Source: Mycolicibacterium tusciae JS617 (GTDB lineage: Bacteria > Actinomycetota > Actinomycetes > Mycobacteriales > Mycobacteriaceae). Taken from it: 64,000 nt of DNA. Location: the NCBI RefSeq assembly GCF_000243415.2, contig NZ_KI912270.1, forward strand, positions 2,604,001 through 2,668,000, given 5' to 3'. The notes below the pieces were generated by a model that saw only the letters and a program-made list of their open reading frames with translations, did no database searches and was not told the origin of the DNA. A program made the position numbers and the translations under genes. Every line of letters starts with the position of its first letter. Positions within the stretch are counted from its first letter, which is position 1. Positions 26,324-53,937 of the stretch are shown in pieces.

Positions 26324-27654
26324 TGTGGTGTCTCGGGACATCGCTGACACTTTTGTCTTGGGACATCGCTGACACTCATGGTGCCGGTTTGGGCTCGCGA
26401 GTGCGATAGGTACGGGTGTTTGGTTCGGCGGGTTGGTGGTAGCGGGCGGGGTCGGCGGTGAATGCGCGGACGAGTCGGTTGCCGCTGAAGATCGCGATGT
26501 GGTCACCGTCGCGGATGACGTCGCATTCGTGGCCGGCCCAGCGCAGGCCGACGTTGATCCTGTAGGGCGCAGCGCACACGTAGCCCGACTGCTCGCCGAC
26601 GGTGTGGTGGCTGACGAACACGGGTGCGGGAAGTGGGCGGTCGGCTGGGCGGGCCTTGGCGGTGGCGTGAAACGCCTCGGCCGGGGTGGCTCCACGCAGC
26701 GCACGGTGGGGCCGTTGGTGGTTGTAGAAGCTGCGGAACTCCTCGAGCAGGTCGTTGAGTTCGGCGACGGTGGCCGCCGGGTCCCGCGCGGACAGCCACT
26801 TCTTCAGTGTCTGCCAGAACCGCTCGATCTTGCCGCAGGTCTGCGGATGAAACGGTGCCGAGTTGATCGTGCGCACACCAAGGGCGCGCAGGTTGATCTC
26901 GAACGCCGATTCATGCGCATGGAATCTACCGGTGTAGACGATTCCGTTGTCCGACAACGACATCGACGGTATCCCACACTCGTCGATACCAGCCATGATG
27001 ACCGACCAGACGAGGTCACCGTCGGCGTCGCCGGCATCGGCGCGCAACCCCACGGCATAGCGGGAGTGGTCATCGAGGCTGCCCGCGATGGCCACCGCAC
27101 TGCCACCGGCAAGCCACCATCCGGTCCAATCTGACTGCCAGCATTCATTGGGCCGCGCGAACACGAACCGCTTCGTCGCCGACTTCGGACGTTTCTGCGG
27201 CTGCGGGGTGATCAGCCCGCGGCGGGTCAGGATCTGCCACACCGTCGACGGCGACGGCACTGCCTGCACACCGTCGCGTTGCAATGACCACACGATCGAT
27301 TGGGCGCCGTGATCTCGCCCCTGCTCGATCAACTGTTTGCGGCGGCGCACCACCAGGTCCTCGACCTCGGGGCAGGTCTGACCCGGCGAGGTCAATGGCC
27401 GTCGGGACCGATCCTGCAGCCCGTCGATCCCACCGTCACGGAAGCGCCCACGAAACTTGTAGAACGTCTGCCGACTGATGTGCTCGCGGCGACAGAACTC
27501 CGCCACGTTGTCCACTTGCCCGGCCAACGCCGCAGCCATCCGAATGTCCATTGCCGTCACCTTCTGGGCCATGAACCATCGTGGTCGAGGCCCTACTCAG
27601 GTGTCAGCGATGTCTCAAGACATACCGGTGTCAGCGATGTCCCCGAACAGGACA
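26324..27654 (-). mobile_element. IS481-family insertion sequence, copy 1
   Basis: This 1331-bp element has imperfect terminal inverted repeats of 27 bp (22 of 27 matching) that begin TGT and share GGGACATCGCTGACAC. A second copy of that 16-base core lies just inside the left end (26360-26375), and a related inner copy lies near the right end. It carries one transposase gene and is flanked by 15-bp direct repeats. Copy 2 (39130-40460) is the same length; the only difference noticed is one base (27445). Confidence 0.95.
26376..27572 (-). CDS. IS481-family transposase, copy 1
   Basis: This 398-residue transposase has an N-terminal helix-turn-helix (NVAEFCRREHISRQTFYKF, 22-40) and an rve/RNase H-like domain with catalytic acidic residues in WQSDWTGW, SLSDNGIVY and GKIERFWQTLK. 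It cuts and joins the terminal repeats. It is intact, so the element may be active. Its stop codon abuts the inner copy of the terminal motif. Residue 43 is Arg here and His in the other copy. Confidence 0.95.
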   Translation of the reverse strand: MAQKVTAMDIRMAAALAGQVDNVAEFCRREHISRQTFYKFRGRFRDGGIDGLQDRSRRPLTSPGQTCPEVEDLVVRRRKQLIEQGRDHGAQSIVWSLQRDGVQAVPSPSTVWQILTRRGLITPQPQKRPKSATKRFVFARPNECWQSDWTGWWLAGGSAVAIAGSLDDHSRYAVGLRADAGDADGDLVWSVIMAGIDECGIPSMSLSDNGIVYTGRFHAHESAFEINLRALGVRTINSAPFHPQTCGKIERFWQTLKKWLSARDPAATVAELNDLLEEFRSFYNHQRPHRALRGATPAEAFHATAKARPADRPLPAPVFVSHHTVGEQSGYVCAAPYRINVGLRWAGHECDVIRDGDHIAIFSGNRLVRAFTADPARYHQPAEPNTRTYRTREPKPAP

Positions 27655-35829: not shown

Positions 35830-36122
35830 TTTCCGCCTCCTCACCTGATGTCGTAGATCCGTGAATAGAGCCCCATTGTGTTCTGTGCGGCCATCTCGAT
35901 TCGAACATATGATCGAATCTCGGTCTGCGACACCGAAACCGGCCGGCCAACCGCGAAATGACACTGGTGTGATTACACACGCGCTAGCTGCCGTGGTCAA
36001 GCGTTGGAACAGAAATTCATACCATTCCGTGACCCGAATTCGGCGCGTCGAAATATCGGCGTGTCTGTCACACCCTCGGCCACCTGCCCTCGCTCGGCCC
36101 CGACGGCCTAATGTCGGTCACT
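35830..36122. other. 293-base divergent promoter region, whiB2/fbiA
   Basis: No gene is seen. It should hold the whiB2 promoter and leader on the minus strand and the fbiA promoter on the plus strand. On the fbiA side TAATGT (36109-36114) fits a leaderless -10. Confidence 0.5.
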
Positions 36123-37124
36123 GTGAAGGTCACGGTTCTGGTCGGCGGTGTGGGCGGCGCCCGCTTCCTGCTCGGCGTGCAGCACCTGTTGGGGCTGGGG
36201 CAGTTCGGGGATTCTGCGGACCCCTCACCACACGAGTTGACCGCGGTCGTGAACGTCGGTGACGACGCGTGGATGTTCGGCGTACGGATCTGTCCTGACC
36301 TCGACACCTGCATGTACACGTTGGGCGGCGGCATCGACCCAGAGCGTGGCTGGGGCCATCGCGACGAAACCTGGCACGCCAAGGAAGAACTCGCCGCCTA
36401 CGGTGTGCAGCCCGACTGGTTCGGCCTCGGCGACCGCGACCTCGCCACCCACCTTGTGCGCAGTCAAATGTTGCGTGCCGGATATCCGCTGTCACAGGTA
36501 ACCGAGGCGTTATGTGGCCGATGGTCGCCCGGTGCGCGATTGTTACCCGCCAGTGACGATCGCAGCGAAACTCATGTTGTCATCACCGATCCCGAGGACG
36601 GCGAGAAGCGGGCGATCCACTTCCAGGAGTGGTGGGTGCGCTACCGCGCGCAGGTACCCACCCACAGCTTCGCGTTCGTCGGCGCCGATACGGCGACTGC
36701 CGGTCCCGGTGTTGTCGAGTCCATCGAAACCGCCGACGTCGTCTTGGTGGCTCCGTCCAATCCGGTGGTGAGCGTCGGATCGATCTTGAATATCGCAGGC
36801 ATCCGCGGTGCGCTGCGCACGACGACGGCACAGGTCATCGGCTACTCCCCCATCATCGCCGGTAAGCCGTTGCGCGGCATGGCTGACGAATGCCTTTCGG
36901 TCATCGGTGTGGCCAGTACCTCCGAAGCGGTCGGCACCCACTACGGGGCCCGCAGCGGCACCGGCATCCTCGACGGCTGGCTCGTACACGAGGGAGACCA
37001 CGCCGAGATCGACGGCATCGAGGTGCGCGCGGTGCCGCTGTTGATGAAGAATCCCGCGACGACGGCCGAAATGGTGCGCGCCGGGTTGGACCTGGCCGGG
37101 CTGAAGTTGGATCCACGCCAATGA
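36123..37124 (+). CDS. fbiA: F420 biosynthesis FbiA (CofD-type transferase)
   Basis: This 333-residue enzyme transfers the lactyl-phosphate-type group (from the EPPG/LPPG nucleotide intermediate) to the deazaflavin Fo, forming dehydro-F420-0 or F420-0. [15 protein letters not shown] starts the family fold. The GTG at 36123 is chosen because the known protein begins MKVTV and TAATGT lies eight bases upstream; an in-frame ATG at 36111 would add four residues. It overlaps fbiB (ATGA). Confidence 0.95.
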
Positions 37125-38470
37125 CGGAACACGGATCTGCCGCAGCCATCGAAATGATCCCTGTGCCAGGGCTTCCCGAGTTCCGCCCGGGCGACGATCT
37201 CACCGCCGCCATCGCGTCTGCGGCGCCCTGGCTACGCGATGACGACATCCTGGTGGTCACCAGCAAGGTGATATCCAAGTGTGAGGGCCGCATCGTAGCC
37301 GCACCCGTCGACGCCGACGAGCGAGACGCCCTGCGGCGCAAGCTGATCGATGCGGAGGCAGTGCGAGTACTGGCACGCAAGGGCAAGACCCTGATCACCG
37401 AGAACGCTATCGGTCTGGTTCAGGCGGCAGCCGGTGTGGACGGTTCCAACGTCGACTCGGCCGAACTCGCACTGCTGCCCACCGACCCCGACGGCAGTGC
37501 CGCGGCGTTGCGGGACGGACTGCGCCAACGCCTCGGCGTCACCGTGGGGGTGGTGGTCACCGACACCATGGGCCGAGCGTGGCGGAACGGACAGACGGAC
37601 GTCGCGATCGGCGCGGCCGGCCTGACGGTGCTGCATGGGTACGAGGGGTCGGTAGACCGGCACGGCAACGAGTTGATCGTCACCGAAATCGCCGTCGCCG
37701 ACGAGATCGCCGCCGCGGCCGACCTCGTCAAGGGCAAGCTGACCAACCTCCCGGTGGCGGTGGTGCGCGGGCTGTCCCTGCGAGACAACGGCTCCAACGC
37801 CGGCCACCTGGTGCGCGCCGGTGAGGACGATCTCTTCTGGCTGGGCACCGAGGAGGCGATAGCGCTCGGTCGCCTCCAGGCCCAGCTGTTACGGCGGTCG
37901 GTGCGCGCCTTCAGCAGTGAGCCCGTGGCACCCGAGAAGATCGAGGCCGCCGTCGCCGAGGCACTCACCGCTCCGGCGCCACATCACACCCGTCCCGTCC
38001 GCTTCGTATGGATGCAGGATCCGGCGGTGCGGTTGGCCCTGCTCGACCGGATGAAGGCGAAGTGGCGTGCCGACCTCACGGGCGACGGCCGACCGGCCGA
38101 CGCCGTCGAGCGCCGCGTCGACCGCGGCCAGATCCTCTACGACGCACCCGAACTCGTCATCCCTTTCTTGGTGCCCGACGGCGCGCACAGCTACCCCGAC
38201 GCCGAACGCACCGCCGCGGAGCACACGATGTTCACCGTCGCCGTCGGCGCCGCGGTCCAGGCTCTTCTCGTCGCGCTTGCCGTGCGGGGTGTGGGCAGCT
38301 GCTGGATCGGATCCACCATCTTCGCCGCTGGTCTGGTGCGTGACGAGCTCGGCCTGCCGCAAGACTGGGAGCCGTTGGGCGCCATCGCGATCGGCTATCC
38401 CGAAGAGGGTTCCGGGCTGTCGGGACCACGCGATCCGGCGCCGACGGACGACCTGCTGGTGCGGCGATGA
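37121..38470 (+). CDS. fbiB: F420 gamma-glutamyl ligase/reductase FbiB
   Basis: This 449-residue fusion has an N-terminal CofE-type F420:gamma-glutamyl ligase (about 1-245) and a C-terminal FMN nitroreductase-like domain (about 250-449). In mycobacteria it adds the poly-glutamate tail and reduces dehydro-F420-0. The ATG overlaps the fbiA stop codon. Its own stop codon lies in the first unit of a 32-bp tandem repeat. Confidence 0.95.
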
Positions 38471-38562
38471 GCGCTTGCGCGAAGAGCAGAGGACTCAGAT
38501 GAGCGCTTGCGCGAAGAGCAGAGGACTCAGATGAGCGCTTGCGCGAAGAGCACAGGACTCAG
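38467..38562 (+). repeat. Three 32-bp tandem repeats at the fbiB/NUDIX junction
   Basis: Units at 38467-38498, 38499-38530 and 38531-38562 each begin ATGAGCGCTTGCGCGAAGAG; the third has a CACAGG variant. Unit 1 contains the fbiB stop codon within ATGA. Each unit ends AGAGGACTCAG or ACAGGACTCAG, a possible ribosome binding site, followed by an ATG. The repeat thus makes four ATGA-type start sites in a row. Confidence 0.95.
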
Positions 38563-39099
38563 ATGAGCCTGCACTCGTCGGCGGTCGAGACGTTGACCCA
38601 ATGGCAGACACCCGATCCGGGTCAGGACACGCTGCGCCACGCCGTGCTGGCGTTCCTGGCCGCGCGTCCCGACGGATGCCTGCGCTCATGCGAGCCCGGG
38701 CATGTGACCGGCTCGGCTTTGGTGGTCGACCACACGGGAACTCACGCCCTGTTGACGCTGCACCCGCGGTTCGGCCGCTGGCTGCAACTCGGCGGGCACT
38801 GCGAAGAATCCGACGCCGACATCGTCGCCGCCGCACTGCGGGAGGCCACCGAGGAGTCGGGCATCGACGGCCTGGAGATCGATCCGATGCTGGCCGCGTT
38901 GCACGTGCACCCCGTGAGGTGTTCGCTCGGCGTGCCGACTCGCCACCTCGATATGCAGTTCGTCGTGCACGCCCCTGCGGGTGCTGAAATCGCCCGCAGC
39001 GCCGAGTCGTTGGACCTTCGATGGTGGCCGCTGGCTGCGCTGCCTGATGACTGCGACTTCGGGCTCACCCAGCTGGCGGCCGCGGCCCGCAACAGGTGA
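38563..39099 (+). CDS. NUDIX hydrolase
   Basis: This 178-residue protein has a NUDIX box reading GGHCEESDADIVAAALREAT followed by EESGI, with the core REATEESGI intact. It probably hydrolyses a nucleotide diphosphate derivative; substrate is unknown. The ATG at 38563 follows the third 32-bp repeat unit. Position after fbiB suggests cotranscription with the F420 genes, but a role in F420 is only a guess. Confidence 0.85.
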   Translation: MSLHSSAVETLTQWQTPDPGQDTLRHAVLAFLAARPDGCLRSCEPGHVTGSALVVDHTGTHALLTLHPRFGRWLQLGGHCEESDADIVAAALREATEESGIDGLEIDPMLAALHVHPVRCSLGVPTRHLDMQFVVHAPAGAEIARSAESLDLRWWPLAALPDDCDFGLTQLAAAARNR

Positions 39100-39129: not shown

Positions 39130-40460
39130 TGTGGTGTCTCGGGACATCGCTGACACTTTTGTCTTGGGACATCGCTGACACTCATGGTGCCGGTTTGGGC
39201 TCGCGAGTGCGATAGGTACGGGTGTTTGGTTCGGCGGGTTGGTGGTAGCGGGCGGGGTCGGCGGTGAATGCGCGGACGAGTCGGTTGCCGCTGAAGATCG
39301 CGATGTGGTCACCGTCGCGGATGACGTCGCATTCGTGGCCGGCCCAGCGCAGGCCGACGTTGATCCTGTAGGGCGCAGCGCACACGTAGCCCGACTGCTC
39401 GCCGACGGTGTGGTGGCTGACGAACACGGGTGCGGGAAGTGGGCGGTCGGCTGGGCGGGCCTTGGCGGTGGCGTGAAACGCCTCGGCCGGGGTGGCTCCA
39501 CGCAGCGCACGGTGGGGCCGTTGGTGGTTGTAGAAGCTGCGGAACTCCTCGAGCAGGTCGTTGAGTTCGGCGACGGTGGCCGCCGGGTCCCGCGCGGACA
39601 GCCACTTCTTCAGTGTCTGCCAGAACCGCTCGATCTTGCCGCAGGTCTGCGGATGAAACGGTGCCGAGTTGATCGTGCGCACACCAAGGGCGCGCAGGTT
39701 GATCTCGAACGCCGATTCATGCGCATGGAATCTACCGGTGTAGACGATTCCGTTGTCCGACAACGACATCGACGGTATCCCACACTCGTCGATACCAGCC
39801 ATGATGACCGACCAGACGAGGTCACCGTCGGCGTCGCCGGCATCGGCGCGCAACCCCACGGCATAGCGGGAGTGGTCATCGAGGCTGCCCGCGATGGCCA
39901 CCGCACTGCCACCGGCAAGCCACCATCCGGTCCAATCTGACTGCCAGCATTCATTGGGCCGCGCGAACACGAACCGCTTCGTCGCCGACTTCGGACGTTT
40001 CTGCGGCTGCGGGGTGATCAGCCCGCGGCGGGTCAGGATCTGCCACACCGTCGACGGCGACGGCACTGCCTGCACACCGTCGCGTTGCAATGACCACACG
40101 ATCGATTGGGCGCCGTGATCTCGCCCCTGCTCGATCAACTGTTTGCGGCGGCGCACCACCAGGTCCTCGACCTCGGGGCAGGTCTGACCCGGCGAGGTCA
40201 ATGGCCGTCGGGACCGATCCTGCAGCCCGTCGATCCCACCGTCACGGAAGTGCCCACGAAACTTGTAGAACGTCTGCCGACTGATGTGCTCGCGGCGACA
40301 GAACTCCGCCACGTTGTCCACTTGCCCGGCCAACGCCGCAGCCATCCGAATGTCCATTGCCGTCACCTTCTGGGCCATGAACCATCGTGGTCGAGGCCCT
40401 ACTCAGGTGTCAGCGATGTCTCAAGACATACCGGTGTCAGCGATGTCCCCGAACAGGACA
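39130..40460 (-). mobile_element. IS481-family insertion sequence, copy 2
   Basis: This 1331-bp element has the same ends, orientation and length as copy 1 and 15-bp target duplications. One base difference was noticed (40251 T versus 27445 C). Near identity points to recent transposition. The two copies are direct repeats 12,806 bp apart. Confidence 0.95.
39182..40378 (-). CDS. IS481-family transposase, copy 2
   Basis: This 398-residue transposase is identical to copy 1 apart from His at residue 43, immediately after the helix-turn-helix. The catalytic Asp, Asp and Glu motifs are intact. No frameshift or internal stop codon is seen. Confidence 0.95.
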   Translation of the reverse strand: MAQKVTAMDIRMAAALAGQVDNVAEFCRREHISRQTFYKFRGHFRDGGIDGLQDRSRRPLTSPGQTCPEVEDLVVRRRKQLIEQGRDHGAQSIVWSLQRDGVQAVPSPSTVWQILTRRGLITPQPQKRPKSATKRFVFARPNECWQSDWTGWWLAGGSAVAIAGSLDDHSRYAVGLRADAGDADGDLVWSVIMAGIDECGIPSMSLSDNGIVYTGRFHAHESAFEINLRALGVRTINSAPFHPQTCGKIERFWQTLKKWLSARDPAATVAELNDLLEEFRSFYNHQRPHRALRGATPAEAFHATAKARPADRPLPAPVFVSHHTVGEQSGYVCAAPYRINVGLRWAGHECDVIRDGDHIAIFSGNRLVRAFTADPARYHQPAEPNTRTYRTREPKPAP

Positions 40461-41583: not shown

Positions 41584-42479
41584 CAGCCCAGTCCCCCCTT
41601 TGCCTGCTTACGCCGAGAATTGCGCACCACCAGGCCTGCGCGCGCACTGAGAGCGGCCTTGATTGTCCACCGCAGCGGCGCCTGTGACCAGTGCGGATAC
41701 CGATCCGCCAGGAAAGTGTAGGTACTGGTGTGGTGGGCGGCCAAGTTGCGGGCAGGATCACGCCCTGTCGCGTGGCCCTTGTCGTGCAAAATCTCAGCCG
41801 ACGGCACGTACACGTTCTGCCAGCCCGCGCGGCCCAGGCGATCTCCTAGGTCAACGTCTTCCATGTACATGAAGTAGCGCTCGTCGAACCCGGCTACCTC
41901 ATCGAACGCCGCCCGCCGCAGCAACAGACACGAGCCGGACAGCCATCCGACGGGCCGTTCGCTGGGCACAAGCCTGGCCTGCCGGTAGGCCGCGGTCCAG
42001 GGATTGGAGCGCCACAGCGGCCCGACGACCGCGTGCATGCCGCCCCGGATCAGGCTGGGCAGATGGCGCGCCGACGGGTACACCGTGCCGTCCGGATCGC
42101 GGATCATCGGTCCCAACGCACCCGCCCGCGGCCAGCGCGCCGCCGCGTCCAAGAGGATGTCGATGCTGCGCGGCCCCCACTGGACATCGGGATTGGCGAC
42201 GATGAAAAACTCCGAGATCGACTGAGCTGAAGTATCTTTGGAGAACTCGTCGACGGCGCGGTTCACCGCGCTGCCGTAGCCGAGGTTTGCACCCGTGCGC
42301 AGCAGGCGCACGTTGGAATAATGTTGGAGCGCCTCCTCGGGCGCGCCGTCGGTGGACCCGTTGTCGGCCATGATGACCGTCACCGCACGATCGGTGGCAT
42401 GCGACAACGACGCCAGGAACCGGTTCAGATGTGGCCCCGGTGAATACGTCACCGTCACGACCACTAATTCGCCGCTCAC
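41583..42479 (-). CDS. wbbL: Rhamnosyltransferase WbbL
   Basis: This 298-residue GT2-family enzyme adds rhamnose from dTDP-rhamnose to decaprenyl-PP-GlcNAc, making the linker between peptidoglycan and arabinogalactan. ADNGSTDG binds nucleotide, and MEDVDLGDRLG holds the acidic catalytic or metal motif. The GTG at 42479 opens the third copy of a 26-bp tandem repeat; two upstream copies carry alternative start codons. It is essential in mycobacteria. Confidence 0.93.
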   Translation of the reverse strand: MSGELVVVTVTYSPGPHLNRFLASLSHATDRAVTVIMADNGSTDGAPEEALQHYSNVRLLRTGANLGYGSAVNRAVDEFSKDTSAQSISEFFIVANPDVQWGPRSIDILLDAAARWPRAGALGPMIRDPDGTVYPSARHLPSLIRGGMHAVVGPLWRSNPWTAAYRQARLVPSERPVGWLSGSCLLLRRAAFDEVAGFDERYFMYMEDVDLGDRLGRAGWQNVYVPSAEILHDKGHATGRDPARNLAAHHTSTYTFLADRYPHWSQAPLRWTIKAALSARAGLVVRNSRRKQAKGGLG

Positions 42480-42531
42480 GCGCCGGCCACTAATTCGCCG
42501 CTCACGCGCCGGCCACCAATTCATCACTCAA
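42454..42531 (-). repeat. Three 26-bp tandem repeats at the wbbL start
   Basis: In the minus direction units run 42531-42506, 42505-42480 and 42479-42454. They begin TTGAGTGATGAATT, GTGAGCGGCGAATTAG and GTGAGCGGCGAATTAG. Each starts with a possible initiation codon; the third is the chosen wbbL start. The first is diverged and the last is partly overwritten by coding sequence. Confidence 0.85.
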
Positions 42532-52222: not shown

Positions 52223-53863
52223 ATGACGAGCGTTAGCGATCAATCGGTCGAGCCCGCGGGCGAGCACGAGATCGACATCCACACCACCGCGGGCAAGCTG
52301 GCCGATCTGCGCAGGCGCGCAGAAGAAACGCTGCACCCCGTCGGCGAGGCGGCCGTGGAGAAGATTCACGCCAAGGGCAAGCTGACCGCCCGGGAACGCA
52401 TCCTCGCGCTGCTGGACGAGGGCTCGTTCGTCGAACTCGACGCACTGGCCCGGCACCGCAGCACGAACTTCGGGCTGGCTGACAAGCGCCCGTTCGGCGA
52501 CGGTGTGGTCACCGGCTACGGCACCATCGACGGCCGCGAGATCTGCATTTTCAGCCAGGACGTCTCGGTGTTCGGCGGCAGCCTCGGCGAGGTCTACGGC
52601 GAAAAGATCGTCAAGGTCCAGGAACTCGCGATCAAGACGGGCCGCCCGCTCATCGGCATCAACGACGGTGCAGGCGCGCGCATCCAAGAGGGTGTGGTGT
52701 CACTCGGCCTGTACAGCAAGATCTTTCACAACAACATCATGGCCTCTGGGGTGATCCCGCAGATCTCGCTGATCATGGGCGCCGCCGCCGGCGGCCACGT
52801 GTACTCCCCCGCACTGACCGACTTCGTCGTCATGGTCGACCAGACCAGTCAGATGTTCATCACCGGACCGGATGTCATCAAGACGGTCACCGGTGAGGAC
52901 GTCACCATGGAGGAACTGGGCGGCGCGCACACGCATATGGCGAAGTCCGGCACCGCGCATTATGTGGCGACCGGCGAGCAGGACGCGTTCGACTACGTCC
53001 GCGACCTGTTGTCATACCTGCCCAGCAACAATTACGCCGACCCGCCGCGCTACCCCGCGACGGTTCCGGCGGGTGCGATCGAGGACAACCTCACCGATGA
53101 GGACGTCGAGCTGGACACGTTGATCCCCGATTCGCCGAACCAGCCCTACGACATGCACGAGGTCATCACCCGCATCCTCGACGACGACGAGTTCCTCGAG
53201 GTGCAGGCCGGCTATGCCGGAAACATTCTGGTCGGCTTCGGCCGTATCGAGGGCCGCCCGGTGGGCATCGTGGCCAACCAGCCGACCCAATTCGCCGGCT
53301 GCCTGGACATCAACGCCTCGGAGAAGGCCGCACGGTTCATCCGCACGTGCGACTGCTTCAACGTCCCGATCGTGATGCTGGTCGACGTACCGGGCTTCCT
53401 GCCGGGCACCGAACAGGAATACAACGGCATCATCCGCCGCGGCGCGAAGCTGCTCTATGCCTACGGCGAGGCCACCGTCGCCAAGATCACCGTGATCACC
53501 CGTAAGGCCTACGGCGGCGCGTACTGCGTCATGGGCTCCAAGGAGATGGGCGCCGACGTCAACGTGGCCTGGCCGACCGCGCAGATCGCGGTGATGGGCG
53601 CCGCAGGTGCGGTCGGGTTCGTCTACCGCCAAGAGCTGGCCCAGGCCGCCAAGGAGGGCAAGGACGTCGATGCGCTTCGCCTCGAACTGCAGCAGACCTA
53701 CGAGGACACCCTGGTGAACCCGTACATCGCTGCCGAACGCGGTTATGTCGACGCGGTGATCCCGCCATCGCATACCCGCGGCTATGTCGCCACCGCGCTG
53801 CGCCTGCTTGAGCGCAAGGTGACGCAGGTGCCGCCGAAGAAGCACGGGAACATTCCACTGTGA
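52223..53863 (+). CDS. accD5: Acyl-CoA carboxylase beta subunit AccD5
   Basis: This 546-residue carboxyltransferase makes methylmalonyl-CoA from propionyl-CoA, for methyl-branched lipids, as part of AccA3-AccD5-AccE5. Oxyanion segments [10 protein letters not shown] and [15 protein letters not shown] are intact. The ATG at 52223 lies eight bases after TAGCAT (52209-52214), a leaderless layout. Its stop codon overlaps accE5 (GTGA). Confidence 0.96.
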
Positions 53864-53937
53864 GCGGGGCGAACGATTCAACAGCTGTGAGCGGGGCGAA
53901 CGATTCAACAGCTGTGAGCGGGGCGAACGATTCAACT
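53860..53937 (+). repeat. 27-bp tandem repeats at the accE5 start
   Basis: Units at 53860-53886 and 53887-53913 are identical, begin GTGAGCGGGGCGAACGATTC and end AACAGCT; a shortened third unit covers 53914-53937. Unit 1 contains the overlap of the accD5 stop and accE5 start. In frame the repeat encodes [14 protein letters not shown] copies. Confidence 0.95.

Follow-up and report, generated by a model that had tools for sequence, protein, structure and literature searches.

Three tandem 32-bp units separate fbiB from a NUDIX-domain gene in Mycolicibacterium tusciae JS617 (positions 38467–38562 of the window, the 64,000-nucleotide stretch of DNA analysed here), raising the question of where such a repeat comes from and what it does between two genes. 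The three units proposed in a preliminary description of this DNA were confirmed by the sequence and by TRF (period 32, 3.2 copies, 98% matches); units 1 and 2 are identical, and unit 3 differs from them by a single G-to-C substitution (AGCAGAGG to AGCACAGG) (Table 1). The fbiB stop codon TGA (38468–38470) falls inside the first ATGA, at the head of unit 1, and unit 3 runs directly into the NUDIX ATG at 38563. Every unit reads as an ATG, ten codons and a TGA (36 bases), with the TGA inside the next ATGA, which makes 32 bases the spacing at which 11-codon ORFs join at −4. The four ATGs (38467, 38499, 38531 and 38563) do change frame as first described, but "rotating" through all three frames fits better than "alternating", since 32 equals 2 mod 3. 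It was also correctly noted that the first ATG lies in the NUDIX frame and meets a stop codon within one unit (38500–38502, overlapping the unit 2 ATG). The ribosome-binding-like unit ends are present as well (AGAGGA in units 1 and 2, ACAGGA in unit 3), but they are weak and fall in positions 20–31, the variable part of the family described below.

Table 1 Features at the fbiB–NUDIX junction (positions in the window).
Feature	Position	Strand	Description	Evidence
fbiA/CofD-like gene	36111..37124	+	upstream of fbiB	Pfam CofD, gene calls
fbiB (F420 gamma-glutamyl ligase + nitroreductase domain)	37121..38470	+	stop in first ATGA	Pfam F420_ligase, Nitroreductase
Repeat unit 1	38467..38498	+	mini-ORF 38467–38502, 11 codons + TGA	sequence, TRF
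Repeat unit 2	38499..38530	+	identical to unit 1; mini-ORF 38499–38534	sequence, TRF
Repeat unit 3	38531..38562	+	one substitution; mini-ORF 38531–38566; TGA overlaps NUDIX ATG (ATGA 38563–38566)	sequence, TRF
NUDIX-domain protein gene	38563..39099	+	putatively coupled downstream gene	Pfam NUDIX

The fbiA/CofD-like gene overlaps fbiB through an ATGA at 37121–37124 that carries no repeat. Two near-identical IS481-like insertion sequence copies also lie in the window (26324–27619 and 39130–40425), one of them a short way 3′ of the NUDIX gene; 1295 of 1296 aligned bases are equal over the stretch compared, which is truncated.

The unit recurs elsewhere in the genome, as had been proposed for a check. 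The pattern TGAGCGCTTGCGCGAAGAGCA (bases 2–22 of the unit) has 73 copies at up to three mismatches, the three of the junction included (19 forward, 54 reverse), and its reversed pattern has 0 matches in the same 7.3-Mb genome at the same threshold; the full 32-bp unit occurs once more at up to three mismatches. A 1.25-Mb sample of the genome that includes the window (60 stretches of up to 20 kb each, 45 around copies and 15 elsewhere) held 87 copies of the 19-base core in 64 arrays at up to four mismatches, whereas 40 shuffled cores averaged 6.35 matches and reached 27 at most; tandem arrays with spacings of 31–33 bp were present at ten of its loci. CGATGAGCGCTYGCGCGAAGAG opens the element and gives way to about 10 bases that are specific to the locus: when positions were tallied across 159 cores, which had been picked with similar patterns, bases 0–18 were near-invariant except for T/C at position 9, and bases 20–31 varied. 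From locus to locus the last third of the unit differs, but the units of one array mostly have it in common, and therefore one copy seems to arrive at a locus and then multiply locally. The same core stands at unrelated junctions (rpsS–rplV, parA–parB and upstream of a nitronate monooxygenase gene), so nothing about the element is F420-specific. The repeat belongs to a dispersed family and is not a product of chance.

Two further observations were made in this genome. Three element copies (L042, + strand, 7576; L048, − strand, 10746; L053, − strand, 6707) follow the same TGGTGCACCA sequence about 1.5 kb past the end of a called gene, an arrangement that points to upstream genes being paralogs. 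In L035–L094 and the window, the 45 nt behind stop codons are also enriched in a second motif, GATTTGTGTGCGTTT-like.

The exact core GATGAGCGCTYGCGCGAAGAG was found in 175 of 297 Mycobacterium genomes (reversed control, 0), and 105 of the 297 hold two exact cores 6–18 bases apart. Across the order, 46 of 298 genomes and 12 of 76 genera (Mycobacterium counted) have the core, with none among 20 genomes from other genera of the same family; it occurs in families f2, f6 and f12, and one f4 genome has one match. We read 20 stretches from ten genomes of other families. Tandem units in f12 (9-Mb genomes) and f6 are mostly 32 bp long, with the upstream stop at the element in 8 of 9 loci, and in f2 the core forms part of spacings of about 80–100 bp; at four f2 loci (L316, L318, L321, L325) these longer units include further parts resembling GAGCATCGCAGCGAG and GAGGAGCGGAGCGA. 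Phages and plasmids were dropped as candidate carriers after the core gave no match at E 0.01 in 50,697 phage and 72,556 plasmid records. None of the papers searched has the core in any of six spellings, and among the matches listed in word searches no title or abstract opening describes such a unit.

This dispersal bears on the simplest account of the array, an ordinary minisatellite produced by slippage of a sequence born at this junction without any mobile element. Linkers that are locus-specific and largely common within an array do argue for local multiplication, and the window also holds a similarly built 26-bp array of unrelated sequence, but the presence of a 19-base core at dozens of unrelated loci, and in 175 of 297 Mycobacterium genomes, makes a local origin of the first copy difficult to accept. 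As a full explanation the minisatellite is thus very improbable; we hold it refuted for the origin of the first unit and keep it for the multiplication step. The element resembles VNTR/minisatellite loci in its locus-specific tandem units and differing copy number, and is unlike them in being a dispersed family, often at a fixed place relative to stop and start codons.

We compared occupied and empty junctions at 41 loci with NUDIX relatives (11 named loci and 30 others, the M. tusciae genome included, from 30 of 56 genomes with a match), 34 of which also have fbiB; two of the loci (L103 and L112) have identical FbiB–NUDIX sequences and probably represent one genome. Direct −4 overlaps were seen at 24 of the 34 fbiB–NUDIX junctions, other distances (−53 to +8) at seven, and the element at three, with 3 copies in M. 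tusciae, 2 in genome G027 and 25 in G013. The predicted copy-number variation among relatives was therefore borne out, with 0, 2, 3 and 25 copies at this one junction, in a comparison of species with one genome each. The G013 array, known from one draft assembly of about 160 contigs, reads as 25 consecutive 11-codon ORFs; 24 of its copies are identical and the last is different at its end. M. neglectum, the sister in the tree, has gcggcg followed directly by ATGAGTCTGCAC, where M. tusciae has gcggcg, the three units and then ATGAGCCTGCAC. On a tree of FbiB plus NUDIX (34 rows), three changes are needed and three are forced by the well-supported branches; they may be one gain and two losses.

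Other junctions differ in the same way. At rpsS–rplV, 4 of 25 genus loci are occupied, as is locus L195, and the 21 unoccupied ones comprise nine at −4, seven at −1 and five others; single inserts measure 32–35 bp, and L195, for example, has 35 bp between the flanks that are joined in L263 as cggcg and ATGACTTCC. At parA–parB, M. tusciae has four copies and G005 two diverged ones (the pattern counts one), and the other 26 genus loci, whose spacers vary widely, have no element at up to four mismatches. The empty rpsS–rplV and parA–parB sites show a difference, not its direction. At occupied sites, the insert follows the final upstream codons and precedes the start codon of the downstream gene.

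The two bases before ATGA are CG in 68 of 70 canonical junctions, where outside M. tusciae the search pattern dictated the base at −1 and left that at −2 free; in the M. tusciae genome, where the search did not ask for CG, it precedes ATGA in 13 of 14 canonical junctions, compared with 15 of 70 element-free ATGA overlaps.

Copy numbers of 0–25 at fbiB–NUDIX itself could be read, in line with the tuning proposed in the preliminary description, as a regulatory tuner, in which copy number would be selected as a rheostat of downstream expression that sets the NUDIX enzyme against F420 synthesis. The 24 identical G013 copies indicate an array that is recent or homogenised, which would suit such selection, and other arrays stand between genes whose ratio may matter, e.g. 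parA–parB. However, 31 of 34 fbiB–NUDIX junctions have no copy, 24 of them being bare −4 overlaps; the unit is tied to no gene class, and neutral slippage would yield the same pattern. We therefore regard selected tuning as possible, though on balance doubtful.

We then asked of each junction whether the ORF opened by the element reaches the downstream start through −4 or −1 overlaps, restricting the set to junctions at which the element TGA serves as the upstream stop and a gene on the same strand begins within 110 nt. This strict walk succeeded at 10 junctions in the M. tusciae genome (1 fused, 1 dead), at 24 in 12 other genomes (1 dead, 10 beyond the fetched stretch) and at 6 in other families (2 beyond the stretch); six further arrays had no such downstream gene. 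With the 12 walks that left the fetched stretch set aside, 40 of 43 junctions were chained (failures: 1 fused, 2 dead), versus 7 of 24 element-free pairs that have an RTGA stop and lie 15–45 nt apart (9 fused, 8 dead; Fisher p = 8e-8). Widening the control gap to 15–110 nt gave 17 chained, 20 fused, 18 dead and 3 beyond the stretch. Furthermore, measured from the last copy, the frame of the downstream gene is the coupled one in 26 of 34 cases in M. tusciae (p = 3e-7; one third expected) and in 47 of 65 cases in the 12 other genomes (p = 3e-10; one third expected), a set fetched after the idea of coupling had formed. These walk, frame and period statistics treat loci as independent, some of them being orthologous, and the other-genome loci (L136–L215) were the first among the matches listed, chosen with GATGAGCG in the pattern. 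The gene caller was crude, missing genes and starts, and in-element TTG starts (TTGC) were left out; it placed the upstream stop at the element TGA in 14 of 53 M. tusciae arrays and 39 of 81 others.

Two variants of the walk were abandoned. Walks begun at +1 or +2 in the element are not independent frame controls, as the +1 walk re-enters the same chain and the +2 walk is the downstream frame; a permissive walk was replaced by the strict one, having also succeeded in 36 of 58 ordinary pairs. Shine–Dalgarno matches of at least four bases precede 25 of 45 coupled starts compared with 31% of 1073 called genes, and five-base matches are alike (18% vs 16%); we conclude nothing from Shine–Dalgarno strength.

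Array periods were compared by location as well. Of 30 junction arrays, 23 have a first period of 2 mod 3, versus 1 of 10 arrays inside or antisense to genes (p = 3e-4 for 2 mod 3 versus all other periods), eight of which are at 0 mod 3 (one 51-bp spacing set aside). The remaining seven junction arrays include five at 0 mod 3, of which four still chain and one fuses to the downstream gene, and two at 1 mod 3, both facing an opposite gene; 13 other intergenic arrays are mixed (7 at 0 mod 3, 6 at 2 mod 3). Within the 1.25-Mb sample, all 26 arrays of other sequence in called coding sequence have 0 mod 3 periods, and 7 of the 9 arrays with a 2 mod 3 period are the element. A 31-bp last spacing ends the walk at parA–parB in M. 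tusciae.

Some arrays were also noted individually. Arrays of 30 and 33 bp lie inside or antisense to called genes at L141, L149 and L051, where by eye the core reads DERLREE-like in one frame. The 26-bp tandem unit of other sequence (42461–42522, − strand), which precedes a glycosyltransferase-like gene, is bounded by GTGA, reads by eye as a 9-codon ORF ending in the next GTGA, and appears to have arisen by duplication of the start of the gene itself. Where a carboxyl-transferase gene and an acyl-CoA carboxylase epsilon-like ORF overlap by GTGA, a 27-bp array (53858–53936, 2.9 copies) lies in frame and adds repeats to the N-terminus of the ORF.

The frame and period preferences also weigh against the element being a conserved DNA or RNA signal (a protein-binding site, a recombination site or an RNA structure) whose reading frames are incidental. 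Such a signal would account for the near-invariant core and variable linker, with the selection of those cores by similar patterns kept in mind, and for the palindromic TCGCGCGA variant. RNA folding, however, is not unusual (z −1.49 to 0.34 at five junctions), and we found no Rfam match and, by simple consensus, no terminator-like or promoter-like site, so that this reading is quite improbable; a structured RNA regulator, a terminator and a promoter were dropped on the same findings.

Mycobacterial interspersed repetitive units (MIRUs), reportedly going back to Supply et al. in 1997, are the obvious comparison, and the preliminary description had likened the array to the DTGA-site members of that class. 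According to a review, MIRUs seem to be mobile, with insertion at start codons and −4 coupling of their internal ORF (PMC12548453); they measure 40–100 bp and occupy 41 locations in H37Rv (PMC2734929). The two have much in common: units that are dispersed as well as tandem, RTGA stop/start overlaps, an internal ORF leading to the next gene at −4, and copy number that differs between relatives. For the 32-bp element, 24 of 31 unoccupied fbiB–NUDIX loci are −4 overlaps, copy-number variation was seen between species only, and the −4 overlap of the internal ORF with its neighbours was read from sequence, with MIRU-type loci as the positive control: at 14 of 20 such loci, mini-ORFs of 16–19 codons lead into an ORF of at least 60 codons, two others read through in frame, and four gave no walk. 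The likeness therefore held for the ATGA stop/start site, the small overlapping ORF and the tandem units, but not, as far as tested, for length and sequence. Periods of 29–33 bp, mostly 32, lie below the MIRU range (tandem MIRU-type loci are mostly 50–57 bp), into which only the f2 units of about 80 bp holding the core would fit; the mini-ORF has about 11 codons instead of about 16–19, and beyond the terminal RTGA its sequence is no more like the MIRU-type unit than shuffles are.

Could the element nevertheless descend, by truncation or divergence, from the 53-bp MIRU-type unit? It shares the architecture, only 29 of 2000 shuffles score as high as its local alignment to the 3′ part of that unit, and the two are distributed near-complementarily in the genus. 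We found a MIRU-type core pattern, searched at up to two mismatches, in 146 of the 297 Mycobacterium genomes. At a threshold of at least five matches, both cores are abundant in 4 genomes, the 32-bp core alone in 114, the MIRU-type core alone in 72 and neither in 107 (p = 1.6e-14, a value that ignores phylogeny and compares patterns of different stringency); with at least one match, 35 have both, 140 and 111 one only, and 11 neither. Without the common terminal RTGA, however, 601 of 2000 shuffles score as high, and the MIRU-type pattern has 0 matches in the M. tusciae genome (G000) at up to two mismatches. The 32-bp core also occurs outside Mycobacterium, to which the MIRU comparison is confined. 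Descent from a true MIRU thus seems unlikely, and the two families look built alike.

Taken together, the array is probably a local expansion of a MIRU-like mobile coupler that would keep the downstream gene coupled, as judged from sequence comparison. Both the mobility and the coupling of the element are what we infer. Mobility is read from presence and absence at orthologous junctions, with a forced minimum of three changes; among the loci compared we saw no transposition event or enzyme, and no mobilising gene for the element was identified. The element would enter CG-ATGA overlaps by some route; it occupies stop/start junctions that are bare few-base overlaps in most relatives. At canonical junctions its ATG opens an ORF, most often 11 codons long, which ends in an overlap with the following start; upstream gene, mini-ORF(s) and downstream gene thereby form one chain of overlapping ORFs. 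It may survive there because ribosomes that end the upstream gene restart at each overlapping ATG and reach the downstream gene. The ATGA at both unit ends would serve as direct repeats, through which slipped-strand or recombinational duplication could multiply units without breaking the chain. Each extra termination-restart probably passes fewer ribosomes, and copy number may thus lower NUDIX expression; its effect may also be neutral. Against the coupler stand the many copies away from canonical junctions, some inside or antisense to genes, which it explains only as decay, other insertions or caller error. Known translational coupling by −4 overlaps or short upstream ORFs likewise uses ATGA overlaps and a mini-ORF that delivers ribosomes (PMC12548453), whereas here up to 25 mini-ORFs stand in series and are built from repeats.

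More tentatively, and less likely than not, the element may represent a second class of translation-coupling mobile repeat of about 32 bp, found in MIRU-poor mycobacteria and in other families of the order, which would enter CG-ATGA overlaps and grow into relays of up to 25 coupled 11-codon ORFs, with the number of termination-restart steps setting the ratio between the products of neighbouring genes. MIRUs are widely used typing markers, and the 32-bp element could give VNTR-like typing loci for species without MIRUs. To our knowledge, the effect of MIRUs on translation and their way of moving are still open; with a shorter, abundant counterpart in mostly MIRU-poor mycobacteria, the way of insertion would become testable in harmless laboratory strains, as would the cost of serial termination-restart, given a natural series of 0, 2, 3 and 25 copies at a single junction.
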